Program-made: the position numbers and the translations under genes
Source: Halobacteriales archaeon SW_5_70_135
GTDB lineage: Archaea; Halobacteriota; Halobacteria; Halobacteriales; SW-7-71-33
Direction: 5' to 3'
Length of the DNA: 45,764 nt
Assembly: GCA_003022865.1 (NCBI GenBank)
Contig: PXSK01000038.1
Span: 1 to 45,764 of the forward strand
The notes under the pieces: generated by a model
What the model was told of the DNA's origin: nothing
Database searches by the model: none
The model's input: the letters and a program-made list of their open reading frames with translations, nothing else
In this document: piece by piece, positions 835-45,764 of the stretch
Layout: each line of letters starts with the position of its first letter
Numbering within the stretch: the first letter of the stretch is position 1

Positions 835-2037
835 TCAGGCACGGTCGGCGAGCACGTCGTCGTAGACGTCCAGGTACAGCGTCTCGATCTCCTGGCGGGT
901 GGGTACTCGAGGGTTGTTCTCCGGCGACCCGGAGGCGATCGCGTCCGCGGCCATCTCGTCGACGACGCTCGCGTACGAGTCCCGGTCGGGCACGGTCGCG
1001 AACTCCTCGAGGTAGCTGTACAGCGAGACGTCCGCACAGAGGTCGCGGACGGCGGACGCCGCCGCCCGGGCGGCCTCGCGGTCCGGCGTGTCGTCGTCGG
1101 CGGCGCCCAGCAGGCGAGCGATCTCGGCGTATCGTTCCGGTGCGCCCTGGGCCGAGAACTCCGTCACGTACGGCAGGAGGACGCCGTTCGCGAGCCCGTG
1201 GGGGACGTGCAGCTGCGCGCCGAACGGGCGGGCCATGCCGTGTACCAGTGCGACGGACGAGTTCGTGAACGCCTGGCCGGCCTGGAGTTGCCCCACGAGA
1301 GTCTCCTGGCGGGCGTCGAGGTCGTCCCCGTTCGCCCACGCGACGGGCAGCGCCCGCCGGACGCGCTCGATCGCTGCCCGCGCCAGCGTGTCCGGCATCG
1401 ACCACGCGTGGACGGAGACGAAGGCCTCGATCGCGTGTGTGAGCGCGTCGATCCCGGTGAACGCGGTGTGGCTCGGCGGCAGCGTCCGCACGAGGTCGGG
1501 GTCCTCGACCGCGACCGTCGGCATCGCCGCCGTCGCGACGACGAGAAACTTCGTCGCCGTGGATTCGTCGGTGATCACGACGGAGCGAGTGGCCTCGCTG
1601 CCCGTGCCCGCCGTCGTGTTCGTCGCACACAGCGGCGGTATCGGCGACGGGACCCCCTCGTAGCCGGCACGGTCGACGGCGTACTCCCGGATCGCGCCGC
1701 CGTTGGCCGCGACGACGCCGATCGCCTTCCCCGCGTCGATGGGTGAGCCGCCGCCCAGTGTGACGATGCAGTCACAGTCGCCCGCCCGGTAGCGGGCGAG
1801 TCCACGCTCGACGTTCTCGACAGTGGGGTCGGGCCGGACCTCGTCGAAGACCGTCGTCGCCAGACCGGCCCCGTGTAGGCTGTCGAGCAGGCGATCGCCG
1901 TAGCGCTCGAAGACGCCCGGTGTCGCGACGACCAGCGCCCGCGAGCCCCGGGGCGCCATGCGTTCGCCGACCTCCGTCACGGCGCCACGGCCGACGACGA
2001 CTTCCGCGGGCGAGACGAAGCGGTCGGTCCCCGACAT
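835..2037 (-). CDS. iron-containing alcohol dehydrogenase
   Basis: 400 aa; GGGSPIDAGKAIGV, TTAGTGSE and HGMARPFGAQLHVPHGLAN motifs of the Fe-ADH family; start overlaps the upstream ALDH stop (ATGA). Confidence 0.93.
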   Translation of the reverse strand: MSGTDRFVSPAEVVVGRGAVTEVGERMAPRGSRALVVATPGVFERYGDRLLDSLHGAGLATTVFDEVRPDPTVENVERGLARYRAGDCDCIVTLGGGSPIDAGKAIGVVAANGGAIREYAVDRAGYEGVPSPIPPLCATNTTAGTGSEATRSVVITDESTATKFLVVATAAMPTVAVEDPDLVRTLPPSHTAFTGIDALTHAIEAFVSVHAWSMPDTLARAAIERVRRALPVAWANGDDLDARQETLVGQLQAGQAFTNSSVALVHGMARPFGAQLHVPHGLANGVLLPYVTEFSAQGAPERYAEIARLLGAADDDTPDREAARAAASAVRDLCADVSLYSYLEEFATVPDRDSYASVVDEMAADAIASGSPENNPRVPTRQEIETLYLDVYDDVLADRA

Positions 2038-3473
2038 CAGTCCGCGAGGTATGGCGCGAACAGTTCTTCGGGGTCCGGCTCCGTGGCGTCCTCGATCGGC
2101 CGCGCGACGGTCGTCGTCTGGTAGAACTTCTCGAAGCTGACGTTCTCGTCGAGCTGGTTGCCGCCCCAGGTGCCGGCACCCTCCGACAGCGTCGCGCCGA
2201 GCCCGTTGGCGTAGTGGCCGCCGTTGCTGAACGAGTGAACCTGGTTTACGAGCAGTCGCGCGACGTCTATCTCCCGGCCGGCACGGCGGGCACGCGCCTC
2301 GCTGTCGGTGTGGACGCCCGCCGAGTGGCCCGCCCCCTCGTAGGACAGGATCGAGCGGGTGAGCGACAGCGCCGCCTCGAAGTCCTCGGCGCGGTAGACG
2401 GTCAGCACGGGCGCTATCTTCTCGCCGGACATGGGGTGCTCGGGGCCGACACCGCGGCCCTCGACCATGAGAAAGTCCGCCTCACGGGCGCCGCGGTCCT
2501 CGATGCCGGCCAGTTCGGCGATCTCGGCGGGCGAGCGGGCGATCGCCTCGGGGTTCAGCGAGTCGCCGTCGTGTGGAAACAGCGTCTCCCGCAGTCGGCG
2601 GCGGTCGCCGTCGCCGAGCAGGTGCCCGCCCGCCCGACCGAGGGCGGCGACGGTCGGTTCGTACACGTCGTCGACGATCGCGGCGTTGCCCTCGCTGGAG
2701 CAGGAGGTGCCGTTGTCGAAGCGCTTGCTCGTGGCGATGCGCTCCGCCGTCGCGTCGACGTCGGCGGTCTCGTCGACGACCGCGACGGGGTTGCCCTCGC
2801 CCACACAGTAGTTGGGCGTGCCCGACTCCTGGCCGGCGCGGACGTTGTCGCTCGAGCCGGTCACCTGCAGGAGGTCGACCTGCTCCATCAACGCGTAGGT
2901 CTTCGCCTTGCTCACCGGCGGCGGCAGCATCTGCACCAGGTCACGCGGCGCGCCGACCGCGTCGAGTTCCTCGCGCACCCACTCGACGACCTGCTCGCAG
3001 GTCGCCCGCCCCCGCGGCGAGGGCGAGAGCAGGATCGCGTTCCGGCTCTTGACGGCCATCATCGAAAGCAGTGTCGGCGTCGCGCCCGGGTTCGTCGAGG
3101 GGACGACTGCGCCTACGACGCCGACGGGCTTTGCGATCTCGACGAGTTCGTTCTCGGGGTCGCGCTCGACGACACCGACGGTCGGCTCGCCGAGCATTTC
3201 CGCCAGCGCGCCGGTGATCTTCCGGCGCTTCTTCCGGTACTTGTCCTCGACGACACCCAGCCCGGTCGTCTCGACGGCCAGCTCGGACAGTTCACGACAG
3301 CGGTCCGCCTCGTACACGGCCCAGCCGACCGCCCGCGCGAGTTCGTCCACCTGCGCCTGGTCGTACTCTTCGACGGCCGCCATCGCGGCACGGGCGTCCT
3401 CGATCGCGCTCTCTACGGTCCGCTCAGGGTCGGCCGACTCCGCCCGCGCCGAACGGGTCGTCTCCGGGCTCAT
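2037..3473 (-). CDS. CoA-acylating aldehyde dehydrogenase (EutE/SauS-like)
   Basis: Start taken at MSPETTRS; VPSTNPGATP, FDNGTSCSSEG (catalytic Cys context) and SNGGHYANGLGATLSEGAGTWGGN resemble acylating aldehyde dehydrogenases; the ORF extends to 3506 with an alternative start. Confidence 0.88.
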   Translation of the reverse strand: MSPETTRSARAESADPERTVESAIEDARAAMAAVEEYDQAQVDELARAVGWAVYEADRCRELSELAVETTGLGVVEDKYRKKRRKITGALAEMLGEPTVGVVERDPENELVEIAKPVGVVGAVVPSTNPGATPTLLSMMAVKSRNAILLSPSPRGRATCEQVVEWVREELDAVGAPRDLVQMLPPPVSKAKTYALMEQVDLLQVTGSSDNVRAGQESGTPNYCVGEGNPVAVVDETADVDATAERIATSKRFDNGTSCSSEGNAAIVDDVYEPTVAALGRAGGHLLGDGDRRRLRETLFPHDGDSLNPEAIARSPAEIAELAGIEDRGAREADFLMVEGRGVGPEHPMSGEKIAPVLTVYRAEDFEAALSLTRSILSYEGAGHSAGVHTDSEARARRAGREIDVARLLVNQVHSFSNGGHYANGLGATLSEGAGTWGGNQLDENVSFEKFYQTTTVARPIEDATEPDPEELFAPYLAD

Positions 3474-3603
3474 ACGCGCTCCATGGTGTGTATCACTGAT
3501 AAACATAATGATCGTTCAGGACAGAGCCAAGTGTCCGACGAGACGATCACGAACGACGATTACTTTTTTGTGGGGACGGGGCGGAGTCGCAGCCGAGCGA
3601 CGG

Positions 3604-6600
3604 ATGTCAGAGCAGCAGGACCTCGTACGACCGCCCACGACGGTAGACGCGAACCCGATCAGGACCCGGGCCGACTGGGAGCGCCAGCGCGAGCGGGCCC
3701 GCGAGGACCCGGGCGCGTTCCACGGCGAGATCGCGACGGAGCGACTCCACTGGCACGAAGACGGCGTCTGGGCAACCCGTGACGGCGACGAGTGGACCGG
3801 CTTCGCGGACTGCGACCCGGTCGAACTCGACTGGGACGCCGACCACGAGCCGTGGGACGTCGCCCTCGACGACGACGACCCGCCGCTGTACCGCTGGTTC
3901 GTCGGCGGCGAGACGAACGCCTGCTTCAACGAGGTCGACCGCCACGTGCTCGCGGGCCACGGCGACGAGACCGCGTTCCACTTCGAGGGCGACCGCTGGG
4001 ACCAGTCGAAAAACGACGGTCGCGGCGGTCCGGTCGTCTCCGAGTCCGTCTCCCGACGGGAGTTGCTCCACCGGGTCGTCGTGGCGACCGAGGTGCTGCG
4101 AGACCTGGGCGTCGAGCGCGGCGACCGGGTGGCGCTGAACACCCCGAACGTACTGGAGCAGATCTACTACACTGAGGCCTGTAAGCGCCTGGGCGCGGTC
4201 TACACGCCGGTGTTCGGCGGCTTCTCCTCGAAGACACTGTCGGACCGGATCGCCGCGCTGGACGCCGAGGTGCTGATTACCGCCGACGGCGGCTACCGCA
4301 ACGCCGAAATCGTCCCGTACAAGGAGCAGTACGGCGACCCCGCCCTGGACGACTACCTGCCCGTCGAGACCGTCCGTGAGACCGTCAGGGACGCCCTCGC
4401 CGACCTCGACGTGAGCGAGACACACGCGACCGCGATCGGGGCGGCCGTCGAGGACGCCGTCGAGGGCGCCGTCACCGTCGACCGGGCCGACGCCATGCGT
4501 GGCGTGGGCCACGCACTCGACGCCCTGTCGGTCGACGCCGAGCGCGCGACGGAGGTCCGCACCGCGATCGCCGCGGCGCTGGTCGACGCCGAGCACGTCG
4601 TCGAGGACGTGGTCGTGATCGAACACACCGGACAGGAGACGAACGTTCGCGACCGCGACCACTGGGCGCAGGACCTGGAGGCCGACGCCCGCGAGACCGT
4701 TCTGGCGAACGCCCGCGAGGCCGGCTTCGACGTCGACAGCGAGGCCGACCTCCGCTCGCTTCCGGACCGGGACCTCGTCGAGGCGCTGTGGGCCACGAGC
4801 GAGCCCGAACCCGTCGACGCCGAGTACCCGCTCTTTGTCATCTTCACGAGCGGGTCGACGGGACAGCCGAAGGGCGTCGTCCACGTCCACGGAGGCTACA
4901 CGGCGGGGATCGCTCACACGATGCGGGTCTCCTTCGACGCGCGACCCGGAGACACCGCCTTTGTCGTCGCCGACCCGGGCTGGATCACCGGACAGTCCTA
5001 CCTCATCAGCGCCTGCCTGACGACGCGCACGACGAGTGTCGTCGCCGAGGGGTCGCCGCTGTACCCGGACGCCGGCCGCGTCTCCTCTATCATCGAGCGC
5101 TACGACGTGGACGTCTTCAAAGCAGGGGTGACGTTCCTGAAGACGGTCATGGAGGACGAGGACAACGTCGCGGACGTGCGGGCGTGGTCGACGGACTCCC
5201 TGCGGGTCGCGACGTTCTGTGCGGAGCCGGTCAACGAGGCCGTCCAGGCGTTCGGCATGCGCGAGGTCTGTTCTTGGTACAGCAACTCCTACTGGGCGAC
5301 CGAGCACGGCGGTATCGTCTTCACGCACTTCTACGGCAACGAGGACATGGCGCTGCGTCCGGACGCTCACACCTACCCCTGTCCCTGGGTGTTCGACGAC
5401 GTCTGGCAGCGGACCGAGACGGCAGCCGGCACGGAGTGGGCCGCCGCCGACCGCGGCGAGCGCGGCGAGATCGTGGTCCGCGAACCGTACCCGTACCTCA
5501 TGCGGACAGTGTGGGGGGCGAGCGAGTCGTTCGACCCCGACGACCCCACCGCCTGGGAGGGTGACCGCGAGCGGTTCGAGGACGTCTACTGGATCGAGCG
5601 CGACGACGAGTACGCCTACCGGCAGGGTGACGTGGCCAAAAAGTACGACGACGAATCCGTCAGCCTCCACGGCCGCGCGGACGAGGTGATCAACGTCTCC
5701 GGACACCGAACGGGCACCGAGGAGCTCGAAGGTGCGATGCTACGGGACAAGCAACTGAACCCGGAGACGCCCGTCGCGAACGTCGTCGTCGTGGGTGCGC
5801 CCCACCACGAGAAGGGACTCGTCCCGGTCGCGTTCGTCCAGACCCGCGAGGGAACGTCGCTGACGGCCGAGGTGGAGGACCGCCTCGCCGACTTGGTGCG
5901 CGAGGCGAAGGGCGTCGTCGCGGTGCCGGACGCCTTCATCGAGGTCGAGGCGTTCCCGGAGACCCGCTCGGGGAAGTACATGCGCCGGATGCTGACGGCG
6001 ATGCTCGCCGGCGACGAGGTGGGCGACACCACCACCCTGCGGAACCCGGAGGCTGTCGACCGCGTCCGGCCGAAGGCCGAGCGCTGGCGGCGCCGCCAGC
6101 GCGTCGCCCGGCAGCAGGACCGCCTCGAGGAGCACCGCTTCTTCCGCGTCCAGTACACGCCCGTGGTCGGCACCGACCGAGAGATCGCCACGGTCGTCAT
6201 CGACAACCCGCCCGTCAACGCGCTCACCGAGCGCGCCCTCGACGAACTCACGACCGTCGTCGGGCACCTCGACGACCGCGACGCCGTCGGTGCAGTCGTC
6301 GTCGCCAGCGAGGGCGAGCCGTTCGTCGCCGGCGCCGACGTCGAACAGCTGCTGGAGGAGGTCCACGAGCCGGCCGAGGCCCGCGCGCTCGCGGCCACCG
6401 CACACGAAGCCTTCGAGCGCCTGGAGACGCTGTCGGTGCCGGTCGTCGCCGCCGTCGACGGCGCCGCCCTCGGCGGCGGCAACGAGCTCCAGCTGGCGAC
6501 GCACTACACCGTCGCCGAGGAGCACGTGACCGTCGGCCAGCCGGAACTGCGGCTGAACATCCTCCCCGGCTACGGCGGCACGCAACGACTCCCGCGAGTG

Positions 6601-8991
6601 CTCGAGGAGCACCGCGGGCGGGCGGGACTCTCCGACGCTCTCGTCGCCATCACGAACGGCCGGGAGAGGGACGCTGCGGACGCTTGCGAGACGGGACTCG
6701 TAGACGAGGTGACCGAGGCGCCCGCCCGGGTCCGGGCCGCCGAACTCGCCCGCGCACACGTCCGCGACGAGAACGACACCCTACGGGACGCCCGCGAGGA
6801 CCGCCGGGCGGCCCGCGAGCGGTGGCAGGAGCCGGAGGCGTTCCCCGAGGACGTGCTGGAGCACGAGGACCTCAGGCGCAACCGCCGGTCGTGTGAGCGG
6901 GCCGGCGTCGGTCGCGAGCGGGCGTTCGAACGAGCCGTCGAGGCCGTCCGGACCGGCTTCGAGGAGGGGCTCTCGGCCGGCATGGAGCGGGAGGCGGAGC
7001 TGTTCGCCGAGGCCGTCGTCGACCCGGTGGGCGGCAAGCGCGGCATCGAACAGTTCCTCGACGGCCGGGCACCGCCGCTCCCGACGCGGCCACGCGAGGC
7101 GCCGCCGCTGGAGCGTGCCCCGGAACTGGAGCGGCGGGGGGACCTGCTGCCGGTCGGTGCGCCGTTCTACCCGGGCGCCGACGAAGTGCCGGACTGGCAG
7201 TACGGCTTCGCCGTCGAGCGCGATCCCGAGACCGGCGAGCCGGCACACGGCGACCCGATCGAGGCGGAGATCGAGGGGATCCACCCCGTCGAGGAGCCCG
7301 GTCCGAACGAGGTACTGCTGTACGTGCTGGCCAGTGAGGTGAACTTCAACGACGTCTGGGCGATCACGGGCGTGCCGGTGAGTCAGTTCGAGAACCACGA
7401 CCGTGACCGCCACGTCACCGGCAGCGGCGGCGTCGCCCTCGTCGTCGACGCCGGTGGCGCCGTCCAGGCCGAGGGTCGGGTCGGGGTCGGCGACCTCGTG
7501 ACCGTCTACTCGGGGCAGAGTGACGTCCTCTCGCCGCGGATGGGGCTGGACCCGATGTTCGCGGACTTCTCCATTCAGGGGTACGAGGAACCGGACGGCA
7601 GCCACCAGCAGTTCATGCTCGCCCAGGCGCCGCAGGTTCACCCCGTGCCGGAGGGCGTCACTCTCGAGGAGGCCGGCTCGTACCTGCTCGACTCGGGCAC
7701 CGTCTACCGGGCGCTGTTCACGACCCTCGACGTCGAGTCGGACCGACGGATGTTCGTCGAGGGCGGCGCGACCGGAACCGGTTACGAGACGCTACGAATG
7801 GGGCTGCGCTCGGGGCTCTCGGTGACGGGACTGTGCTCCAGCGACGACCGCGTCGAGCGCATCGAACGCGCCGGCGGTCACGCCATCGACCGCACCGACG
7901 ACGGTGTCGCCGACGTCTGGGGGCCGATCCCGGAGGACCCCGAGAAGTGGGACGAGTGGCGGGCGGCCGGCGAGCCCCTCCTGGAGCGATTCCGCGAGGC
8001 CCACGGCGGGCTCGCGGACTACGCCACCAGTCACGCCGGCGAGCAGTCGTTCCCCCGCACCGTCCAGTTGCTCGCCGAGGGCGGCGAACTCACCTTCTGG
8101 GGGGCCTCTACGGGGTACGAGCTCACCTTCCTCGGCAAGCCGGGCGAGCGTACGCCGGAGGCTGCCCTCGACGACGCCGACCTCGGCGCCGGCGAGGGAC
8201 TACTGGTGTACTACGGTGTCGACGGCGACGGCAGCGGGGCTGACGTGCTCGACCGCACCGGTCTCCAGGCGATCGAGGCCGGTCGCGAGGCCGGCGCCCG
8301 CGTGGTCGTCGTCGCCGACACCGACGAGCAGGCGGAGTTCGTCGAGTCACTCGGCTACGGCGACAGCGTGGAAGCGGTCGTCTCCGTCGAGGGGCTAGAG
8401 CGACGGGAGGAGGCGTTCGCGTGGCCGGATTCGCTGCCGTCGTTTCCGGACCCACAGGCCGCTCCCGAGGCGTTCAGTCGGGCCGTCCAGGAGTACACCG
8501 ACACGGCGTTCAAGCCGCTCGGCTCGGCCGTCGGCAAGCACCTCAGCACCGCGGAGAACCCCCGCGGCTATCCGGACGTCGTCTTCGAGCGCGCCGGACA
8601 CGACGCACTCGGGGTCTCGACGATGCTCGTCCGCCCGCACACCGGCCGCGTGGTGTACAGCGAGTCGATGGCGGGCCGCCGTTACTCGTTCTACGCGCCG
8701 CAGGTGTGGATGCGCCAGCGCGACATCCTGATGCCCGCCGCCGCCGTCCGGGGCACCCACCTCTCGAACGCTCACGAGGTGCAGCAACTCAACGCGGAGA
8801 TCGACGCCGGCGAGTACGACCTCGCGACGCCGGCCGTCGTCGACTGGGACGAGCTGCCGACGACACACCAGGCGCTGTGGGACAACGAGCACGACGCCGA
8901 ACTGTACGTCGCCGACCACGCCCTCCCCGCCGAGGGACTGCGCGACCGCTCGGAACTGTACGAGGCTTGGGCCGCCGGACACGACGGCTAA
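3604..8991 (+). CDS. pcs: propionyl-CoA synthase-like trifunctional protein (acyl-CoA synthetase / enoyl-CoA hydratase / acrylyl-CoA reductase-like MDR)
   Basis: 1,795 aa from MSEQQDLVRPP; IFTSGSTGQPKGVVH and ETRSGKYMRRML (AMP-binding), AALGGGNELQLA and GQPELRLNILPGYGGTQRLPR (crotonase), then an MDR domain resembling crotonyl-CoA reductase; same domain order as known Pcs. Confidence 0.9.
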   Translation: MSEQQDLVRPPTTVDANPIRTRADWERQRERAREDPGAFHGEIATERLHWHEDGVWATRDGDEWTGFADCDPVELDWDADHEPWDVALDDDDPPLYRWFVGGETNACFNEVDRHVLAGHGDETAFHFEGDRWDQSKNDGRGGPVVSESVSRRELLHRVVVATEVLRDLGVERGDRVALNTPNVLEQIYYTEACKRLGAVYTPVFGGFSSKTLSDRIAALDAEVLITADGGYRNAEIVPYKEQYGDPALDDYLPVETVRETVRDALADLDVSETHATAIGAAVEDAVEGAVTVDRADAMRGVGHALDALSVDAERATEVRTAIAAALVDAEHVVEDVVVIEHTGQETNVRDRDHWAQDLEADARETVLANAREAGFDVDSEADLRSLPDRDLVEALWATSEPEPVDAEYPLFVIFTSGSTGQPKGVVHVHGGYTAGIAHTMRVSFDARPGDTAFVVADPGWITGQSYLISACLTTRTTSVVAEGSPLYPDAGRVSSIIERYDVDVFKAGVTFLKTVMEDEDNVADVRAWSTDSLRVATFCAEPVNEAVQAFGMREVCSWYSNSYWATEHGGIVFTHFYGNEDMALRPDAHTYPCPWVFDDVWQRTETAAGTEWAAADRGERGEIVVREPYPYLMRTVWGASESFDPDDPTAWEGDRERFEDVYWIERDDEYAYRQGDVAKKYDDESVSLHGRADEVINVSGHRTGTEELEGAMLRDKQLNPETPVANVVVVGAPHHEKGLVPVAFVQTREGTSLTAEVEDRLADLVREAKGVVAVPDAFIEVEAFPETRSGKYMRRMLTAMLAGDEVGDTTTLRNPEAVDRVRPKAERWRRRQRVARQQDRLEEHRFFRVQYTPVVGTDREIATVVIDNPPVNALTERALDELTTVVGHLDDRDAVGAVVVASEGEPFVAGADVEQLLEEVHEPAEARALAATAHEAFERLETLSVPVVAAVDGAALGGGNELQLATHYTVAEEHVTVGQPELRLNILPGYGGTQRLPRVLEEHRGRAGLSDALVAITNGRERDAADACETGLVDEVTEAPARVRAAELARAHVRDENDTLRDAREDRRAARERWQEPEAFPEDVLEHEDLRRNRRSCERAGVGRERAFERAVEAVRTGFEEGLSAGMEREAELFAEAVVDPVGGKRGIEQFLDGRAPPLPTRPREAPPLERAPELERRGDLLPVGAPFYPGADEVPDWQYGFAVERDPETGEPAHGDPIEAEIEGIHPVEEPGPNEVLLYVLASEVNFNDVWAITGVPVSQFENHDRDRHVTGSGGVALVVDAGGAVQAEGRVGVGDLVTVYSGQSDVLSPRMGLDPMFADFSIQGYEEPDGSHQQFMLAQAPQVHPVPEGVTLEEAGSYLLDSGTVYRALFTTLDVESDRRMFVEGGATGTGYETLRMGLRSGLSVTGLCSSDDRVERIERAGGHAIDRTDDGVADVWGPIPEDPEKWDEWRAAGEPLLERFREAHGGLADYATSHAGEQSFPRTVQLLAEGGELTFWGASTGYELTFLGKPGERTPEAALDDADLGAGEGLLVYYGVDGDGSGADVLDRTGLQAIEAGREAGARVVVVADTDEQAEFVESLGYGDSVEAVVSVEGLERREEAFAWPDSLPSFPDPQAAPEAFSRAVQEYTDTAFKPLGSAVGKHLSTAENPRGYPDVVFERAGHDALGVSTMLVRPHTGRVVYSESMAGRRYSFYAPQVWMRQRDILMPAAAVRGTHLSNAHEVQQLNAEIDAGEYDLATPAVVDWDELPTTHQALWDNEHDAELYVADHALPAEGLRDRSELYEAWAAGHDG

Positions 8992-22741: not shown

Positions 22742-22950
22742 AAGACGTACTCGTCCTCGTGGCCCATCATGCCGTCCTCCTCGTAGCCCGGTTCGCCGTC
22801 GTCGATCCCGCCTCCGGTTTTGAACGCCTTGATCCCCGTCGAGAGCAGTTCCTCGACCGCCTCCTTGCGGTCGACGAACTCCCCTTGTTCTATCATCTGG
22901 GTGATCCGCGTCTCCAGGTGTTCGGGCACCTCGATCTCGACCCGTGGCAT
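22738..22950 (-). CDS. ribbon-helix-helix (CopG-like) regulator
   Basis: MPRVEIEVPEHLETRITQMIEQGEFVDRKEAVEELLSTGI RHH pattern. Confidence 0.85.
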   Translation of the reverse strand: MPRVEIEVPEHLETRITQMIEQGEFVDRKEAVEELLSTGIKAFKTGGGIDDGEPGYEEDGMMGHEDEYVF

Positions 22951-23066
22951 CGGTGATCGGCGGTTCACGAGTCGTGGGCTTAAGCCTGGCGGGGATCCCG
23001 ACGGCGGTGGACTCCCACCCGGCGGGAAGGACAGGCTTACGGGCCGGCCACCCCTACCGGTCGGCG

Positions 23067-24449
23067 ATGGGATCAGTGGGCGGCGACGGTCCGGCCGCCG
23101 CCGAGAGCACGTGCGTGACGGTCGGCGCCGGAGCCGTCCCGCGGGGGGTGCGGGCCGACTGCCGCGAGGTCGGCGACGTCTCCTACCGCGCCCTCCTGGA
23201 GGCGTTCAACCCGCCACACACCTACTGGTCGACGCCCGACGGCCTGGAGGTCGCCGGCGTCGGCAGTGTCGCCACGCTCGTCGCCGACGGGCCGGACCGC
23301 TTCGACCGCCTCCGCGCGGCGGCCGACCGCCTGTTCGAGACCGTCGCCTTCGACGGCCCGGCGGTCGCGCGCCCCCGGGCGATCGGCGGACTGGCCTTCC
23401 ACGCCGACCACCGCCCCGAGCCGCCCTGGGAGTCGTTTCCCGCCGCCGGCTTCGTCCTCCCGGAGACGCTGCTCGTCCGCGGCGACGACCGCACGCTGCT
23501 GACGGCCGTCACTCCCGCCGACGGCGACGCGCTCGGAGACACCGCGGTGCCGACCGAGCCCGCGACGGCGCTCTCCCGGGCGGTCGAGCGGGTCGCGGAC
23601 CTGCCCTCGATGCGCCCGACCGGGGCGCCGCCGGGGGTACGCTCGCGGCGCACGGTGACGGGCCGCGAGGCCTGGACCGCCGGCGTCGAGCGCCTGCGCG
23701 GCCGGATCGACGCCGGCGACCTCCGGAAGGCCGTCCTCGCGACCGCACTGGAGGTCGACACCGAGGCGCCGGTCGTGCCGGCCGACACGCTGGAGCGGCT
23801 GCGGCGCACGCATCCGGACTGCTTTCGCTTCCTCGTCCGGCCGGACGGTCGGGCCTTCTTCGGCGCGCCGCCGGAGCGACTGGTCGCGCTCGACGGCCGC
23901 GACGTGCGCGCGGAGGCGCTCGCGGGGACGGTCCCCCGCGGCGACGACCCCGCCGAGGACGAGGAACTCGCCGCCCGGCTGCTGGCGGACGAGAAGATCG
24001 CCCACGAGCAACGTCTCGTCGTCGAGGCCGTCCGCGAGCGGCTCGCGCCCCTCGGCGAACTGTGGACCGACGACCGTCGCGTCCGGCGACTCGCCGGCGT
24101 CCAACATCTGGAGACGCCGATCGGGGCCCGGCTGGCGACGGACCGTCACGTGCTCGACCTGGTCGAGTCGCTGCATCCGACGCCGGCGGTCGGCGGTCTG
24201 CCGGCCGACCTCGCCGCCGGGGTCGTCCGGGAGACCGAGCCGTTCGAGCGCGGCTGGTACGCCGGTCCCGTGGGCTGGTTCGACGCCGCCGGCGACGGCG
24301 AGTTCGCGGTCGCCATCCGCTCCGGCGTCGCCGCCGACCGTCGCGTGACGCTGTTTGCCGGCAACGGTATCGTCGCCGACAGCGACCCCGGCGACGAGTG
24401 GGACGAGGTCAACCTCAAGTGGCCCGTACTCGACGAACTCCGCAGATGA
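23067..24449 (+). CDS. menF: isochorismate synthase
   Basis: Chorismate-binding domain (LAGTVPRGDDPAEDEELAARLLADEKIAHEQRLVVEAV; GWYAGPVGWFDAAGDGEFAVAIRS), first gene of the men cluster. Confidence 0.93.
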   Translation: MGSVGGDGPAAAESTCVTVGAGAVPRGVRADCREVGDVSYRALLEAFNPPHTYWSTPDGLEVAGVGSVATLVADGPDRFDRLRAAADRLFETVAFDGPAVARPRAIGGLAFHADHRPEPPWESFPAAGFVLPETLLVRGDDRTLLTAVTPADGDALGDTAVPTEPATALSRAVERVADLPSMRPTGAPPGVRSRRTVTGREAWTAGVERLRGRIDAGDLRKAVLATALEVDTEAPVVPADTLERLRRTHPDCFRFLVRPDGRAFFGAPPERLVALDGRDVRAEALAGTVPRGDDPAEDEELAARLLADEKIAHEQRLVVEAVRERLAPLGELWTDDRRVRRLAGVQHLETPIGARLATDRHVLDLVESLHPTPAVGGLPADLAAGVVRETEPFERGWYAGPVGWFDAAGDGEFAVAIRSGVAADRRVTLFAGNGIVADSDPGDEWDEVNLKWPVLDELRR

Positions 24450-26350
24450 GCGAGGACCGTTCCCCGGACGCCGCGCCCGATCCCGACCTCGACCCCGACC
24501 CCGGCGACAGTCCCAACCTCGCGACGCTGTGGGGGCGGTCCGTCGTCGACGAGCTCGCCCGGCTGGACGTGCCGGTGGTGTACGCGCCCGGCAGCCGGTC
24601 GACGCCGCTCGTGGTCGCCGCCTGCCGGCACCCGGACGTGCGGACGTACCGTCATCTCGACGAGCGCTCGGCCGGCTTCTTCGCGCTCGGCCGGGGACGA
24701 CACGCCGGGCGGCCGGCGGCGGTCGTCACCACCTCCGGGACGGCGACGGCGAACCTCCATCCGGCGGTGATGGAGGCCGACCGCGCCCGCGTGCCGCTGC
24801 TGCTGCTGACGGCCGACCGTCCCGCCGACCTGCGGGACTCCGGGGCGAACCAGACCGCCGACCAGGAGAAGCTGTACGGCGACGCCGTCCGGTGGTACCG
24901 CGACCTGCCGGGGCCGGCGCCGCACGAGCGGGCGCTGCGACGCCTACGCACCGACGCCGCCCGCGCCGTCGGGACGGCCGCCGGCGACGGGAACCCCCCC
25001 GGACCGGTCCAGCTCAACGTCCCGTTCCGAAAGCCGCTCGAACCGCTGCCGCCGGCGGAGATACCCGAGGGCGCACCCCACGACGCGGTGCCGGAGGCGC
25101 TGCTCGCGGGCGCTGAGGCGGCCGTCGCGGGACGGGCGGAGGGCGCGCCGTTCGTCCGCTGGTGGTCGGGCGAGCCCAGCCCGGGCGAGCGGGCGGTCGC
25201 GGACCTCGCGAGCGCCGTCGAGGCGACCGATCGGGGGCTGATCGTCGTCGGGCCGGCCGACGCGCCGCCGCTCTCCGGCGAGCGGGTCGCGGCGCTGTCG
25301 GCCGCGACGGGCTTTCCGCTGCTGGCGGACCCGCTGTCGAACCTGCGGTACTCCGAGTGCGTGGAGCGGGCGCCGGTCTGTGGCGGCTACGACGCGTACC
25401 TCGACCCGCGGGTGACGGCGGCGTGGCCCGACCCCGACCTGGTGGTCGGCGTCGGCGCCTCGCCCACCTCGAAGCCGCTCCGGAGGTACCTCGCCCGCGT
25501 CGACGCCCGGCGCGTACAGGTCGACCCCGCCGGCGGCTGGCGCGAGGCCACGTTCACGAGCACCGACCAGGTCGTCGCCACACCCTTGGCGCTGGCCGAC
25601 GCCGTTCTCGACCGGCTCTCCGTCGACGAGACGCGGACCGAGTGGACGGAGCGCTGGCTGGCCGCCGAGACCGCCCACCGCGAGACGCTGGCGGCCGCCC
25701 GCGACGGCGAGATCGCCGTCAAGGTCGACGGCGAGCGGGTCACGCCGGCGGGAGACGACGTGGAGGGAGTGGCTCTGGCGACCGCGGTCGAGAGCGCGCC
25801 GGCGGGGACGACCCTGTTCGTCTCGAACAGCACGCCGGTCCGCGACCTCGACCGGTTCGTCCCGCCGGACGAGCGACCGCTGGCCGTCCACGGCAACCGC
25901 GGCGTCTCCGGCATCGACGGGATCACCTCGACGGCCGCCGGCGCGACGGCGGCCGGCGACGCGCCCGGTCTGCTCGTCACGGGCGATCTGGCGTGGCTGC
26001 ACGACACGAACGGCCAGCTCGCCCTGCGCGACTACGACGTCGACCTGACGGCAATCGTCATCGAGAACGACGGCGGCGGCATCTTCCACGGGCTGCCCGT
26101 CGAGCAGGTCGAGCCGCCGTTCACCGAGGCCTTTCGCACGCCCCACGGGCTCGACTTCTCGGGGACGGCAGAGACCTTCGAGCTCGACTACCGCGCCGTC
26201 GAGCCGGCCGCGCTCGGCGAAACTTGCCGCGAGGCGGTGGGCAACGGCGAGCCGACGGTGCTCACCGTCGAGTTCGACGCCCGCCGGAGCCACCGGGTGC
26301 GGGAGGCCGTCGTCGACCGCACCGTGACGCGGGTCAGGTCGGACGGGTGA
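24446..26350 (+). CDS. menD: 2-succinyl-5-enolpyruvyl-6-hydroxy-3-cyclohexene-1-carboxylate synthase
   Basis: PVVYAPGSRSTPLVVAA, HLDERSAGFFALG, TSGTATANLHPAVMEA, LLTADRPADLRDSGANQTADQ; ATGA overlap with menF. Confidence 0.96.
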   Translation: MSEDRSPDAAPDPDLDPDPGDSPNLATLWGRSVVDELARLDVPVVYAPGSRSTPLVVAACRHPDVRTYRHLDERSAGFFALGRGRHAGRPAAVVTTSGTATANLHPAVMEADRARVPLLLLTADRPADLRDSGANQTADQEKLYGDAVRWYRDLPGPAPHERALRRLRTDAARAVGTAAGDGNPPGPVQLNVPFRKPLEPLPPAEIPEGAPHDAVPEALLAGAEAAVAGRAEGAPFVRWWSGEPSPGERAVADLASAVEATDRGLIVVGPADAPPLSGERVAALSAATGFPLLADPLSNLRYSECVERAPVCGGYDAYLDPRVTAAWPDPDLVVGVGASPTSKPLRRYLARVDARRVQVDPAGGWREATFTSTDQVVATPLALADAVLDRLSVDETRTEWTERWLAAETAHRETLAAARDGEIAVKVDGERVTPAGDDVEGVALATAVESAPAGTTLFVSNSTPVRDLDRFVPPDERPLAVHGNRGVSGIDGITSTAAGATAAGDAPGLLVTGDLAWLHDTNGQLALRDYDVDLTAIVIENDGGGIFHGLPVEQVEPPFTEAFRTPHGLDFSGTAETFELDYRAVEPAALGETCREAVGNGEPTVLTVEFDARRSHRVREAVVDRTVTRVRSDG

Positions 26351-26461
26351 AGCAGGCGACGACGACGGCATAGCCGAGCGGCGTCCGGCAGGTGAGCAGG
26401 GCCAGCAGCTCGATCCACGGCGACCGGAGGGGCTTTGCCCCGCGGCGTCCACGTCGGCGAC

Positions 26462-27298
26462 GTGACCGAGGACGAACCGGGGGTGTCGGCGCTGTTCGAC
26501 GCCGACCGCTGGCGGCCGACGGACCTGAACGCCGAGTTCCGGGACGTCACCTACCACCGCGGGACCGACGTGGGCGCGGTGCGGATCGCCCTCGACCGGC
26601 CCGGCGTTCGCAACGCCTTCCGTCCGGGGACAGTCGACGAGCTGTACGTCGCGCTGGACGACGCCCGCGTGCGGGGCGGCTCCGGCTACGAGTACCGCGA
26701 CGACGACGCGGGGGCCGGCGAGGACCGCGAGACGCCCGAGAACGTCGGTCGCCTGCACGTCCTGGAGGTGCAGCGGGCGATCCGCCACCTGCCGAAGCCG
26801 GTCGTGGCGGTCGTGCCGGGGTGGGCCGTCGGCGGCGGCCACAGCCTGCACGTCGTCTGCGACCTCACGGTCGCCAGTCGGGAGCACGCCCGGTTCCTCC
26901 AGACCGACCCCGACGTGGCCAGCTTCGACGGCGGCTTCGGCTCCGCGTACCTCGCCCGCCAGGTGGGTCAGAAGCGTGCCCGCGAGATATTCTTTCTCGG
27001 AGACACGTACGACGCTGAGGAGGCGGTGGCGATGGGAATGGCCAACGCCGCGGTGCCCCACGAGCACCTAGAGGAGCGCGCCCTGGAGTGGGCCGCCGAG
27101 ATCGAAACGAAGAGTCCCACCGCCGTCCGGATGCTGAAGTACGCTTTCAACCTCGCCGACGACGGCATGGTCGGCCAGCAGGTGTTCGCCGGCGAGGCCA
27201 CCCGACTCGCCTACACCACCGACGAGGCACGGGAGGGGCGGGACGCCTTCGTCGAGGACCGCGACCCCGACTTCTCCGAGTTTCCCTGGCACTACTGA
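26462..27298 (+). CDS. menB: 1,4-dihydroxy-2-naphthoyl-CoA synthase, apparently with an internal deletion
   Basis: VRNAFRPGTVDEL, PKPVVAVVPGWAVGGGHSLHVVCDLT, TDPDVASFDGGFGSAYLARQVGQKRAREIFFLG; CSGGDQ segment absent. Confidence 0.9.
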   Translation: MTEDEPGVSALFDADRWRPTDLNAEFRDVTYHRGTDVGAVRIALDRPGVRNAFRPGTVDELYVALDDARVRGGSGYEYRDDDAGAGEDRETPENVGRLHVLEVQRAIRHLPKPVVAVVPGWAVGGGHSLHVVCDLTVASREHARFLQTDPDVASFDGGFGSAYLARQVGQKRAREIFFLGDTYDAEEAVAMGMANAAVPHEHLEERALEWAAEIETKSPTAVRMLKYAFNLADDGMVGQQVFAGEATRLAYTTDEAREGRDAFVEDRDPDFSEFPWHY

Positions 27299-27354
27299 CC
27301 GGCGACCGCGGCGGGCACCGACAGCGGGAAGTCCGCGCCCGACCGTCAGGAGGT

Positions 27355-27588
27355 ATGGACCTGCGAGCGCCGCTCGGCCTCGGCGGCGACCACTACCTGA
27401 CCGGCGTGAGCGTCGGGCCGGTGGAGGACGGCCGCGTCCACGACTGTGCCGGCTGTGACGGGCGCGTCCGCCGCGACCGCGTGCACCTGAGCGCGACGGT
27501 CCGCAGTGACGCCGGCGACCGGACGGCGGTGTACCACTACTGTTCGGACGACTGCCTGCGGGCGTGGCTGGCCGTCGCCGCGGACTGA
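27355..27588 (+). CDS. small zinc-finger-like protein (CxxC...CxxxC) inside the men cluster
   Basis: ATG preceded by AGGAGG; MDLRAPLGLGG...CAGCDGRVRRDRVHLSATV...YHYCSDDCLRAWL. Confidence 0.8.
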   Translation: MDLRAPLGLGGDHYLTGVSVGPVEDGRVHDCAGCDGRVRRDRVHLSATVRSDAGDRTAVYHYCSDDCLRAWLAVAAD

Positions 27589-27658
27589 CGCCGGACCGCG
27601 GCCGGAGGGGTGGCCGATCCGCGTTGCTTACCAGCCTCGGGAGGCAAGTACGGGCGAG

Positions 27659-28588
27659 ATGGCCGCGGAGGTGTCGCGCACACGCGCCTGGCTGATGGCC
27701 GCCCGCCCGCAGACGCTGCCGGCGGCCGCCGCGCCGGTCGTCGTCGGCACCGGTCTCGCCGTCCACGACGGCGTCGTTGCCCCGCTGCCGGCGGTGGCGG
27801 CACTACTGGGTGCGCTGCTCATTCAGGTGGGGACGAACCTCGCCAACGACTACTTCGACGCCGTCAAGGGCGCCGACACCGACGACAGTGAGGGGTTCAC
27901 GCGGGTCACGCAGGCCGGACTGATCCGGCCCGGGCGGGTGCGTACCGCGACCGCCGCCGTCTTCGGCCTGGCGGTGCTCGTCGGCTCCTATCTGGTGTAC
28001 GTCGGCGGCGTGCCAATCCTCGTCGTCGGTCTCGCGTCGATCGCCAGCGGCGTCGCCTACACCGGCGGGCCCTACCCGCTCGGCTACCACGGTCTGGGCG
28101 ACCTGTTCGTGTTCGTCTTCTTCGGTCTCGTCGCCGTCACCGGCACCTACTACGTCCAGGCGGTGACTGCCGTCGCCGGACCGCTGCCGCTCGGACCGCC
28201 GACCGGGACGGTGACGGCGACGGCGGTGGTCACCTCGCTGCCGATGGCGACGCTGTCGACGGCGATCCTCGTCGTCAACAACGTCCGCGACCTCGAAACC
28301 GACCGCGAGGCCGGCAAGCGCACGCTGGCGGTGCGGTTCGGCTACCGAGTCAGCCGCGCCGAGTATCTCGCCTGCCTGCTCGTCGCCTACGCCGTGCCGG
28401 TCGCGCTCTCTCTCTCCGGGTTCGACCCGACCGTGCTCCTGCCGCTCGCCACCGCGCCGTACGCCGCCGTCGTCGCCCGGACCGTCCGGGTCGAGCGCGG
28501 CGGCGAGGCGCTGAACACCGCACTGGAGCGGACGGGACGACTGCTCGCGGCCTTCGCCGCCCTGTTCGCGCTGGGGCTGGTGGTCTGA
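27659..28588 (+). CDS. menA: 1,4-dihydroxy-2-naphthoate polyprenyltransferase
   Basis: RPQTLPAAAAPVVVGTG, NLANDYFDAVKGADTDD, NNVRDLETDREAGKRTLAVRFG; polytopic UbiA family. Confidence 0.95.
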   Translation: MAAEVSRTRAWLMAARPQTLPAAAAPVVVGTGLAVHDGVVAPLPAVAALLGALLIQVGTNLANDYFDAVKGADTDDSEGFTRVTQAGLIRPGRVRTATAAVFGLAVLVGSYLVYVGGVPILVVGLASIASGVAYTGGPYPLGYHGLGDLFVFVFFGLVAVTGTYYVQAVTAVAGPLPLGPPTGTVTATAVVTSLPMATLSTAILVVNNVRDLETDREAGKRTLAVRFGYRVSRAEYLACLLVAYAVPVALSLSGFDPTVLLPLATAPYAAVVARTVRVERGGEALNTALERTGRLLAAFAALFALGLVV

Positions 28589-29715
28589 TGGCCCCGTACC
28601 GCGTCGACCGCCGTCCGTTCGCCGTCGACCTGGCGCGGCCGCTGTCGACCGCCGCCGGAACGATCGACCGCCGCGAGGGCTGGCTCGTCCGCGTGCGGAC
28701 GACGGGCGCGGAGGACGACCCGACCGGCGTGGGCGAGGCGACGCCGCTGCCGGGGTGGACGGAGTCGACGGCGACCTGTCGCGAGACGCTGCGTGCCCGC
28801 GCCGGAGACGCGCTCGCCGAGTCGAGGCGGGACCTCCTCACCGGCGTCGACGGCCCGGCGGCCCGACACGGACTGGCGCTCGCACTCGCGGACCTGGCGG
28901 CACGCCGCGACGGCCGACCGCTGTGGGCGCAGATACTCGACTGCGACGACGGCGGCGACGGTGATGACCGCGGCGAGCGGACGGTCCGGGCCAACGCGAC
29001 CGTCGGCGACGCTCCGCCCGGGGCGACAGTCGACCGGGCGCGCGAGGCGGTCGAGCGGGGCTTCGACTGCCTGAAGCTGAAGGTCGGCGCCCGGTCGGTC
29101 GAGGCAGACCTGGAGCGGCTGGCGGCGGTCCGCGACGCCGTGGGCGACGGCGTGCGGCTGCGGGCCGACGCCAACGCCGCCTGGGACTGCCCGGTCGCGG
29201 AGCGGGCGTTCGACGGCGTCGCGGAGCGGGCACTCGACCTGGAGTACGTCGAACAGCCGCTCGACGCCACGGCCCTGGCGGGACACGCGGCACTGCGCGA
29301 GCGGGAGCGACGGCGAGCGGGCGGCGGAACGGACGTCGCGCTCGACGAGTCCCTCGCCGAGGTCGCCGTCGACCGGGTGCTGGCGGCGGACGCGGCCGAC
29401 GCGGTCGTGCTGAAGCCGATGGCGCTGGGCGGCCCGGACCGGGCGCTGGCGGCCGCGCGGGCCGCTCACGAGACCGGCGTCCGGGCGGTCGTGACGACGA
29501 CGGTCGACGCCGTCGTCGCGCGGACGGCCGCGACACACGTCGCCGCGGCCGTCGACGCCGTCGACCCGCGTTCGGGGGCGAGCGCTCACGGGCTGGCGAC
29601 CGCCGACGCGCTCGCCGCCGACCTCGGCCCCGACCCCGCGCCGGTCGAGACCGGGCGGGTCCGTCTCGCGACGGCGTCGGGCACCGGCGTCGACCCGGAG
29701 GTGTTCGAGGAGTGA
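28588..29715 (+). CDS. menC: o-succinylbenzoate synthase (enolase superfamily)
   Basis: KLKVGA, LRADANAAWD, LEYVEQPL, ALDESLAE; position in men cluster. Confidence 0.92.
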   Translation: MAPYRVDRRPFAVDLARPLSTAAGTIDRREGWLVRVRTTGAEDDPTGVGEATPLPGWTESTATCRETLRARAGDALAESRRDLLTGVDGPAARHGLALALADLAARRDGRPLWAQILDCDDGGDGDDRGERTVRANATVGDAPPGATVDRAREAVERGFDCLKLKVGARSVEADLERLAAVRDAVGDGVRLRADANAAWDCPVAERAFDGVAERALDLEYVEQPLDATALAGHAALRERERRRAGGGTDVALDESLAEVAVDRVLAADAADAVVLKPMALGGPDRALAAARAAHETGVRAVVTTTVDAVVARTAATHVAAAVDAVDPRSGASAHGLATADALAADLGPDPAPVETGRVRLATASGTGVDPEVFEE

Positions 29716-31400
29716 GCGACGAGCGCGACGAGCGGGGAGGACACCGCGGGGACGTCGACGCCTGGCGGTTCGTCGACTGGGTGGCCCGCCGGGGGCGTCG
29801 CTCGCCGGAGACGACGGCGGTGGTCGACGCCCGGAGCGGAGGGCGACTGACCTACGCGGCTCTCGACCGCGCCGTCGAGCGCACGGCGGGTCGACTCGCC
29901 GCGCTCGGGGTCGGCGAGGGCGACCACCTGGGGGCGGTCGTCGGGACGCGGCTCGCGGCCGCCCGGGTCGTCCACGCGGCGGCCCGACTGGGGGCGACGC
30001 TCGTGCCGGTCGACCCGCGCGGCGGGGCGGCGGCGGTCCGTGAGCGGCTGGACCGCGCCGACGCGACCGCCGTCGTCTGCGAACGCCCCACCGAGCCGGT
30101 CGCCGTCGACGCCCTCGGCGACGGCCGCCCGCCGCTCGTATCGGTGGACGAGACCGGGGAGTCGGTGCGGGCACTCTCGGGCGTCGAGCCGGCGCCGGTG
30201 ACGCCCGCGACGTGGGGGCTCGACGACCGGCTGCTGGTGCTGTACACCTCCGGAACGACCGGCGACCCGAAGCCCGTGACCCTCACTGCCGGCAACGTCC
30301 TCGCCAGCGCGACGGGGTCGGCGCTGCGGCTCGGGGTCGTCCCCGGCGACCGCTGGCTCTGCGAACTGCCCGCCTACCACACGGGCGGGGTCGCGCCGTT
30401 CTACCGCACCGCGATCTACGGGACGACGGCGGTGGTCGTCGAGCGCGAGCGGGCGACGGCGCCGGCCGGGGAGCCGACCGGTCGCGCCGGCTTCGACGCC
30501 GAGCGGACGCTCCGGGCGGCCCACGAGCACGGGGCGACGGGCGTCTCGCTGGTGCCGACGCAGCTACGGCGGCTGCTCGACGCTGCCGACGGCGACGACG
30601 GGCCGGACGCGCTGCCGGAGTCGCTGCGGTTCGTCCTGCTCGGGGGCGGGCCGGTGCCGGACGCCCTGGTGGAGCGCTGCGGGCGACGGGACCTGCCGGT
30701 CCGTCCCACCTACGGGCTGACCGAGACCGCCTCGCAGGTGACGACCGCCCGCCCGGACGAGGCGACGGCCCACGTCGGCACCGTCGGGCGACCGCTCGCG
30801 GTCACCGACGTGCTGGTGGCCCGCGAGGTCGAGGCCGGCGACGAGTCGGCGGGCGAAGGACCGCCGGGCTACCGGCCGTGTGAGCCCGGCACGGAGGGCG
30901 AGATACTCGTCCGGGGGCCGACGGTGACGCCGGGCTACTACGGCAACGCCGAGCGGACGGCGGCGGCGTTCGCGGGCGAGTGGCTCCGGACGGGCGACCG
31001 CGGCCGGCTGGTCGACGGGCGACTGTACGTCGCCGGCCGCCGCGGGGACCGCATCGTCACCGGCGGCGAGAACGTCGACCCCGAGACGGTCGCCGACGCG
31101 GTCCGGGCCGCCGACGGCGCCCGGTCGGTCGCGGTCGTCGGCGTCCCCGACGGGGAGTGGGGCGAGCGCGTCGCCGCCCTGGTCGTCCGTGACGGCGACG
31201 ACGCGATGACCCACGAGGACGCCCTCGCCGCGTGTCGTGCCCGCCTGCCCGACCACGCGGTGCCGCGGACGGTCCGGTTCGTGGACGGCCTCCCGCGGAC
31301 GACCTCGGGGACCGTCGACCGCGAGGCGGCGCGGGCGTTGCTGGCCGGCGACGGTGACGACGCGGACGACGACTCGGCCGCCGAGCGACCGGACGGGTGA
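29712..31400 (+). CDS. menE: o-succinylbenzoate--CoA ligase
   Basis: LYTSGTTGDPKPVTLTAGN, PTYGLTETASQVTTARP, TGDRGRLVDGRLYVAGRRGDRIVTGGENVDP. Confidence 0.93.
   Translation: MSDERDERGGHRGDVDAWRFVDWVARRGRRSPETTAVVDARSGGRLTYAALDRAVERTAGRLAALGVGEGDHLGAVVGTRLAAARVVHAAARLGATLVPVDPRGGAAAVRERLDRADATAVVCERPTEPVAVDALGDGRPPLVSVDETGESVRALSGVEPAPVTPATWGLDDRLLVLYTSGTTGDPKPVTLTAGNVLASATGSALRLGVVPGDRWLCELPAYHTGGVAPFYRTAIYGTTAVVVERERATAPAGEPTGRAGFDAERTLRAAHEHGATGVSLVPTQLRRLLDAADGDDGPDALPESLRFVLLGGGPVPDALVERCGRRDLPVRPTYGLTETASQVTTARPDEATAHVGTVGRPLAVTDVLVAREVEAGDESAGEGPPGYRPCEPGTEGEILVRGPTVTPGYYGNAERTAAAFAGEWLRTGDRGRLVDGRLYVAGRRGDRIVTGGENVDPETVADAVRAADGARSVAVVGVPDGEWGERVAALVVRDGDDAMTHEDALAACRARLPDHAVPRTVRFVDGLPRTTSGTVDREAARALLAGDGDDADDDSAAERPDG

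Positions 31401-43248: not shown

Positions 43249-45764
<2,516 letters not shown>

Follow-up and report, generated by a model that had tools for sequence, protein, structure and literature searches.

A divergent gene trio at a contig end

The current analysis concerns three adjacent genes on contig PXSK01000038.1 of Halobacteriales archaeon SW_5_70_135 (45,764 nt, referred to below as the window), which encode a trifunctional propionyl-CoA synthase (Pcs) and, divergently from it, a CoA-acylating aldehyde dehydrogenase (ALDH) and an iron alcohol dehydrogenase (Fe-ADH). Judging from sequence and gene linkage, they probably constitute a 3-hydroxypropionate (3-HP) module. This contig belongs to a haloarchaeal metagenome-assembled genome (MAG) of 1.77 Mb with an estimated completeness of 63%, and the left end of the window is also the contig end. 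The locus has the following features.

3604..8991, plus strand: trifunctional Pcs, 1795 aa (phmmer against PDB 6eqo_A; identity to other Pcs)
3826..5976, plus strand: Pcs acyl-CoA synthetase domain, predicted 3-HP activation (Pfam ACAS_N, AMP-binding and AMP-binding_C; TSGSTGQPKG at residues 415-424, catalytic-type Lys791)
6178..6819, plus strand: Pcs crotonase domain, predicted 3-HP-CoA dehydration (Pfam ECH_1; Glu961, Glu981)
7132..8973, plus strand: Pcs MDR domain, predicted acryloyl-CoA reductase, ~615 aa (homology to the 6eqo C-terminus; GATGTG nucleotide-binding motif)
2037..3473, minus strand: CoA-acylating ALDH, proposed malonyl-CoA reductase, 478 aa (Pfam Aldedh; SauS hidden Markov model; SucD 8cei; tree)
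835..2037, minus strand: group-III Fe-ADH, proposed malonate semialdehyde reductase, 400 aa (Pfam Fe-ADH, ADH_Fe_C)
3474..3603, no strand: divergent ALDH/Pcs intergenic region, 130 bp (divergent arrangement kept in 8 loci)

An initial annotation, made from the DNA letters alone, had described a ~1,795-aa reading frame with acyl-CoA synthetase, crotonase, and MDR domains in that order, and the Pfam matches follow the same order; the Pcs start is further supported by an N-terminus (MSE..DLVR.P) conserved among relatives. The two crotonase glutamates singled out there are Glu961 in GGGNEL and Glu981 in GQPEL, while the ALDH cysteine placed within NGTSCSSEG is Cys269 (ALDH residues are given throughout in the numbering of the 489-aa longest open reading frame, 2037-3506 on the minus strand). 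The N-termini of ALDH relatives read MSS.T..., which favors the start at 3473 (478 aa) and leaves an intergenic region of the ~130 bp originally described. This region is A+T-rich and conserved in part among the 8 divergent loci. The ALDH and Fe-ADH genes do overlap, the ALDH stop and the Fe-ADH start having one nucleotide in common, but the sequence is TGATG and not the ATGA originally given.

A full-length propionyl-CoA synthase homolog

A genome scan for Pcs relatives recovered 323, the best 80 of which were used for the locus comparisons presented here; a scan of viral contigs gave no match. Residues 20-1792 of the window Pcs align with PDB 6eqo_A at 1943 bits (phmmer), and the matches that follow are single-domain relatives. 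The 6eqo entry is labeled as an acetyl-CoA synthetase, but we take it to be the propionyl-CoA synthase of Erythrobacter sp. NAP1. For the C-terminal reductase, the score to 6eqo is 713 bits versus 155 bits for the next best family, crotonyl-CoA reductase. The checked residues of the acyl-CoA synthetase P-loop, the A10 Lys791, Glu961, Glu981, and the GATGTG motif, all of which have established catalytic roles within their families, are invariant in 68 of 68 full-length homologs from haloarchaea and bacteria. The initial annotation had proposed a Pcs-like protein, while allowing that the domains might best match unrelated stand-alone families with degraded active sites; the nearest solved relative is instead a full-length Pcs, and the catalytic residues are intact. 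By homology, it is thus confirmed that 3604-8991(+) encodes a full-length propionyl-CoA synthase homolog, which is predicted to convert 3-HP, ATP, CoA, and NADPH into propionyl-CoA.

With 17 other haloarchaeal Pcs, the window protein shares 65-77% identity, and with most bacterial Pcs ~53-56%. A reductase-domain tree places the haloarchaeal trifunctional proteins in a single clade (100/99) with bacterial Pcs beside it (100/98), and short haloarchaeal homologs in a third group. Compared with the propionyl-CoA synthase of the 3-HP bicycle (Chloroflexus; Erythrobacter sp. NAP1), the haloarchaeal proteins therefore share full length, the three domains, their order, and all of the checked catalytic residues, but differ by their separate clade, their divergence in sequence, and the lack of a neighboring bacterial-type malonyl-CoA reductase (Mcr).

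In other haloarchaea, the reductase part of Pcs also occurs either as a stand-alone protein of ~625 aa or fused to crotonase only (L020:9916-11793, L026:11932-13830, and L021:1481-4351; L and G numbers are our locus and genome handles). These proteins form a separate, fully supported clade, and the Haladaptatus copy (L026) adjoins enoyl-CoA hydratases, an acetate-CoA ligase family protein, and a BCCT transporter.

Conservation of the gene arrangement

Among the best 80 of the 323 relatives, the divergent Fe-ADH-ALDH/Pcs trio is found again at 7 further haloarchaeal loci with 65-79% protein identity, which places the arrangement far beyond chance; the synteny comparison recommended by the initial annotation thus yields 8 such loci, the window included. 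The carriers are a member of the Haloarculaceae (L028), Halorientalis (L029), Halovenus (L032), Haloglomus irregulare (L037), two Halobacteriales MAGs (L039, L040), and Salinirussus (L045), and their ALDH and Fe-ADH are 66-73% and 75-79% identical to those of the window, respectively. Natribaculum (L022, L034) and genome G076 (L135) have a rearranged cluster that comprises Pcs, Fe-ADH, a 3-hydroxyisobutyrate-dehydrogenase-like gene, and ALDH. Overall, the ALDH/Fe-ADH pair is present in 10 of the 16 Pcs-bearing haloarchaeal genomes. For the initial annotation, a pair occurring mostly without Pcs would have counted against the proposal; members of this ALDH subfamily were instead seen exclusively next to Pcs.

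The bacterial loci exhibit a different configuration. None of 66 encodes the pair, whereas 47 of the 66 encode a bifunctional malonyl-CoA reductase of ~1230 aa near pcs. Full-length Mcr (~1230-aa tandem SDR) is in turn found in 0 of the 16 Pcs haloarchaea, with SDR matches of only ~200 residues in two of them. It follows from this distribution that the ALDH/Fe-ADH pair occupies the slot of bacterial Mcr. The two would also share a net reaction, malonyl-CoA to 3-HP, although their folds are unrelated, since the pair combines the ALDH superfamily with Fe-ADH in two separate proteins. Thus, the pair probably works like Mcr without belonging to it and would stand in, as unrelated enzymes, for the SDR-type protein beside bacterial pcs. 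One of the Pcs/Mcr loci (L079) is titled as a Klebsiella pneumoniae MAG; it resembles those of Gammaproteobacteria MAGs and the title is probably wrong.

Directly downstream of Fe-ADH, six genomes (G031, G035, and G040-G043) encode a carboxyltransferase (PF01039), and G037 and G076 encode one near the module. Since genomes with a module-linked carboxyltransferase have further copies elsewhere, the linked gene looks like a dedicated paralog for the carboxylation of an acyl-CoA. Methylmalonyl-CoA mutase is encoded in all 16 Pcs haloarchaeal genomes and adjoins the module in Salinirussus, together with an epimerase, and in Natribaculum. The kinds of enzymes making the proposed substrate of the module and consuming its product therefore both lie near it.

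An acylating ALDH related to SauS and SucD

The closest sequence family of the window ALDH is SauS, the CoA-acylating sulfoacetaldehyde dehydrogenase, whose model (NF047625) is its best NCBIfam match. The score of 587.6 bits does not reach the cut-off of 600, and three other Pcs-linked ALDHs are similarly below it (568-584 bits), whereas haloarchaeal ALDHs located beside Tct transporters, CoA-transferase, and Xsc pass with 676-677 bits. This division is mirrored in the ALDH tree, where the Pcs-linked proteins form one clade (97/94; 11 of 11 rows beside Pcs) and haloarchaeal SauS its sister (96/88; 0 of 8 rows seen beside Pcs). Each of the 8 SauS-clade rows has TctA, CoA-transferase, or Xsc as a neighbor, and that of Halomarina has all three. 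Fisher tests of Pcs linkage versus ALDH clade give p = 1.3e-5, or 3e-4 after dereplication, values that are only indicative because the tree rows are related; the flank inspected at most SauS-clade loci extended only ~1.5 kb. Among the differences fixed between the two clades is Met442 to Glu.

These results bear upon the sulfonate alternative that accompanied the initial annotation, according to which the ALDH and Fe-ADH would be a SauS-type enzyme and a sulfoacetaldehyde reductase with only incidental proximity to Pcs. Beyond the SauS match itself, the SarD model gives the Fe-ADH 208.5 bits, and two putative substrate-binding residues of the ALDH, Lys96 and Ser270, occur in SauS too. However, the ALDH falls outside the curated SauS range and clade, and Xsc above its cut-off is found in 0 of 15 Pcs-bearing haloarchaeal genomes tested, while the Halomarina positive control passes with 700.8 bits. 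Moreover, the typical SauS-clade neighbors TctA and CoA-transferase were not found beside Pcs-linked ALDHs, which a carboxyltransferase gene adjoins instead. We have rejected the sulfonate reading as the principal explanation on the basis of the cut-off, Xsc, and clade results, and consider it distinctly improbable. The ALDH is SucD/SauS-like in sequence, yet outside SauS.

Its best PDB relative is the succinyl-CoA reductase SucD (8cei, 286 bits), whose Lys70 and Ser243 bind mesaconyl-C1-CoA by its distal carboxylate (PMC10249356). Lys96, Ser270, Cys269, and His394 of the window ALDH align with Lys70, Ser243, and the catalytic Cys242 and His364 of CkSucD. Lys96 and Ser270 are kept in all Pcs-linked and SauS rows, whereas both positions are Ala in AdhE and acetaldehyde dehydrogenase. 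Due to this conserved SucD-type pair, the substrate is presumably an acyl-CoA with an anionic tail, and we infer that the enzyme reduces malonyl-CoA with NAD(P)H. Malonyl-CoA and sulfoacetyl-CoA, its sulfonate analog, are closely similar molecules, so a shift of substrate between the two clades is easily imagined.

The SucD relationship also raises the prospect that the pair makes another hydroxyacid, such as 4-hydroxybutyrate from succinyl-CoA, with the 3-HP for Pcs originating elsewhere. Indeed, clostridial SucD and 4-hydroxybutyrate dehydrogenase employ the same logic, an acylating ALDH and a dehydrogenase leading from a dicarboxylyl-CoA via the semialdehyde to the hydroxyacid, but they are distant in sequence and a different chain length is proposed here. 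As the ALDH clade is linked throughout to Pcs, whose own substrate is 3-HP, this scenario appears highly improbable; without a search aimed at them, no genes specific to 4-hydroxybutyrate were apparent in the clusters.

Apart from the module, haloarchaea also encode apparent sulfoacetate degradation clusters (L027:1-19000; L025; L122-L127; L130) with SauS, Xsc, Pta, CoA-transferase, and Tct transporters. The Halomarina cluster further includes an aminotransferase and a TRAP-type transporter.

The Fe-ADH and the direction of the pathway

The Fe-ADH matches the fold profile of its family, and its relatives in the PDB are methanol dehydrogenase, 1,3-propanediol dehydrogenase, and FucO. Alignment with FucO, whose metal ligands are well established, places Asp197, His201, His266, and His280 at the metal site, with all four kept; by profile and ligands, it is a group-III enzyme. 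Arg270 stands at the position of a FucO His and is invariant in 11 of 11 Pcs-linked copies. One could speculate that it binds the carboxylate of malonate semialdehyde, which the Fe-ADH is predicted to reduce to 3-HP. An archaeal Fe-ADH-type enzyme from Nitrosopumilus reportedly catalyzes this same reaction as a malonic semialdehyde reductase.

The similarity to 1,3-propanediol dehydrogenases could also be expected of a catabolic module in which Fe-ADH and ALDH act oxidatively upon an external C3 compound (1,3-propanediol, 3-HP, malonate semialdehyde derived from beta-alanine, or acrylate) and Pcs feeds the methylmalonyl-CoA route. NAD-dependent acylating ALDHs do commonly oxidize aldehydes, and external 3-HP may serve those six Pcs genomes in which no malonyl-CoA reductase is recognized. 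Opposed to this are the reductive Mcr that accompanies bacterial pcs, the carboxyltransferase neighbors, and the Lys96/Ser270 pair, which is of the SucD type for a distal carboxylate and not PduP's Leu/Val, and which disfavors a PduP-like propanediol reading in particular. Inspection of the neighbors of the divergent trio, though not systematic, likewise revealed no transporter or diol dehydratase. In our view, catabolism of this kind is unlikely.

A putative 3-HP module

We propose, with a probability of about 0.7, that the three genes constitute a 3-HP module. Malonyl-CoA, supplied by an acyl-CoA carboxylase, would be reduced to malonate semialdehyde by the acylating ALDH and then to 3-HP by the Fe-ADH; Pcs would form 3-HP-CoA and, within the fused polypeptide, dehydrate it to acryloyl-CoA, followed by reduction to propionyl-CoA. 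Subsequently, propionyl-CoA could enter methylmalonyl-CoA and succinyl-CoA, or 3-hydroxyvalerate polymers. In archaea with the 3-HP/4-hydroxybutyrate cycle, the acyl-CoA carboxylase also carboxylates propionyl-CoA. We infer the substrates, reductive direction, and cofactors of the ALDH and Fe-ADH, as well as the physiological role of the module. An Mcr-free route of this type was already suggested in the initial annotation, and it is the reading that best accommodates the synteny, the ALDH phylogeny, the carboxylate-binding residues, the neighboring carboxyltransferases, and the lack of both Mcr and Xsc.

Several observations weigh against this proposal. Firstly, Lys96 and Ser270 are common to SauS, and sequence cannot tell malonyl-CoA from other anionic acyl-CoAs. 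Secondly, no carboxyltransferase adjoins the Fe-ADH of the window, though the contig ends 834 bp away; this genome does encode two carboxyltransferases and one methylmalonyl-CoA mutase away from the module. Thirdly, 6 of the 16 Pcs haloarchaea lack both the module ALDH clade and Mcr, namely Natronomonas G033, G034, and G036, Natronococcus G038 and G039, and Natrialbaceae G044, with the sole ALDHs found in G033 and G038 being only 41-44% identical. The pair is therefore not obligatory for the use of Pcs. Bacterial Mcr was considered as their source of 3-HP and rejected, as none was found; their 3-HP may be imported or derived from other reductases. Lastly, the window genome is among 6 of the 16 Pcs genomes that encode methylaspartate mutase, so that its use of acetate probably does not depend on the 3-HP route alone. 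Matches to the isocitrate lyase family are weak and split in 10 of the 16, including Natribaculum G037, which has methylaspartate mutase as well. The only Pcs genome with neither match is the Halovenus MAG G035, a module carrier, which might depend upon the 3-HP route for acetate or might simply be incomplete.

Relationship to known pathways

According to Borjian et al. 2017 (PMC5592240), two anaplerotic pathways starting from acetyl-CoA exist in haloarchaea, namely the glyoxylate cycle and the methylaspartate cycle. A 3-HP pathway, also mentioned in the initial annotation, has been proposed and supported in Haloferax mediterranei, where it supplies propionyl-CoA for poly(3-hydroxybutyrate-co-3-hydroxyvalerate) (PHBV) (Han et al. 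2013, as summarized in PMC7137286 and PMC6631277, reviews that name no genes). The likeness to the present module lies in pathway logic within a haloarchaeon, and no Haloferax locus is present among the best 80 of the 323 Pcs-type loci. In literature searches on haloarchaeal Pcs and malonyl-CoA reductase, which excluded most subscription journals, no open paper with an account of this gene arrangement came up. Pcs itself is already known, and the ALDH/Fe-ADH arrangement is probably a variant of the route from 3-HP to propionyl-CoA that is built partly of different enzymes and would incorporate CO2 on the way from acetyl-CoA to propionyl-CoA.

More tentatively, and at slightly less than even odds, a SauS-related malonyl-CoA reductase of the ALDH superfamily may act with Fe-ADH and Pcs to let some haloarchaea make succinyl-CoA from acetyl-CoA and two CO2 via the first half of the 3-HP bicycle, as an additional anaplerotic route beside the two cycles. 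If so, several genera, including the cultured Haloglomus irregulare and Natribaculum, would possess a carbon-fixing 3-HP route, which could also account for the supply of odd-chain precursors of the bioplastic PHBV. The Pcs-linked ALDHs also provide named candidate enzymes for reducing malonyl-CoA, which is relevant to the engineering of 3-HP production and CO2 fixation, and they likely illustrate close kinship between sulfonate-type and carboxylate-type acyl-CoA reductases.

Other features of the window

At 24212-24299, ARAGORN calls a tRNA with a four-base anticodon within coding sequence, which is probably a false positive. A gyrB open reading frame at 43292-45764 is apparently interrupted by an intein after GDSAGG and is truncated where the contig ends. 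The stretch 22944-31400 holds apparent genes for menaquinone synthesis (MenF-, MenD-, MenA-, MenC-, and MenE-like), as is ordinary for haloarchaea.

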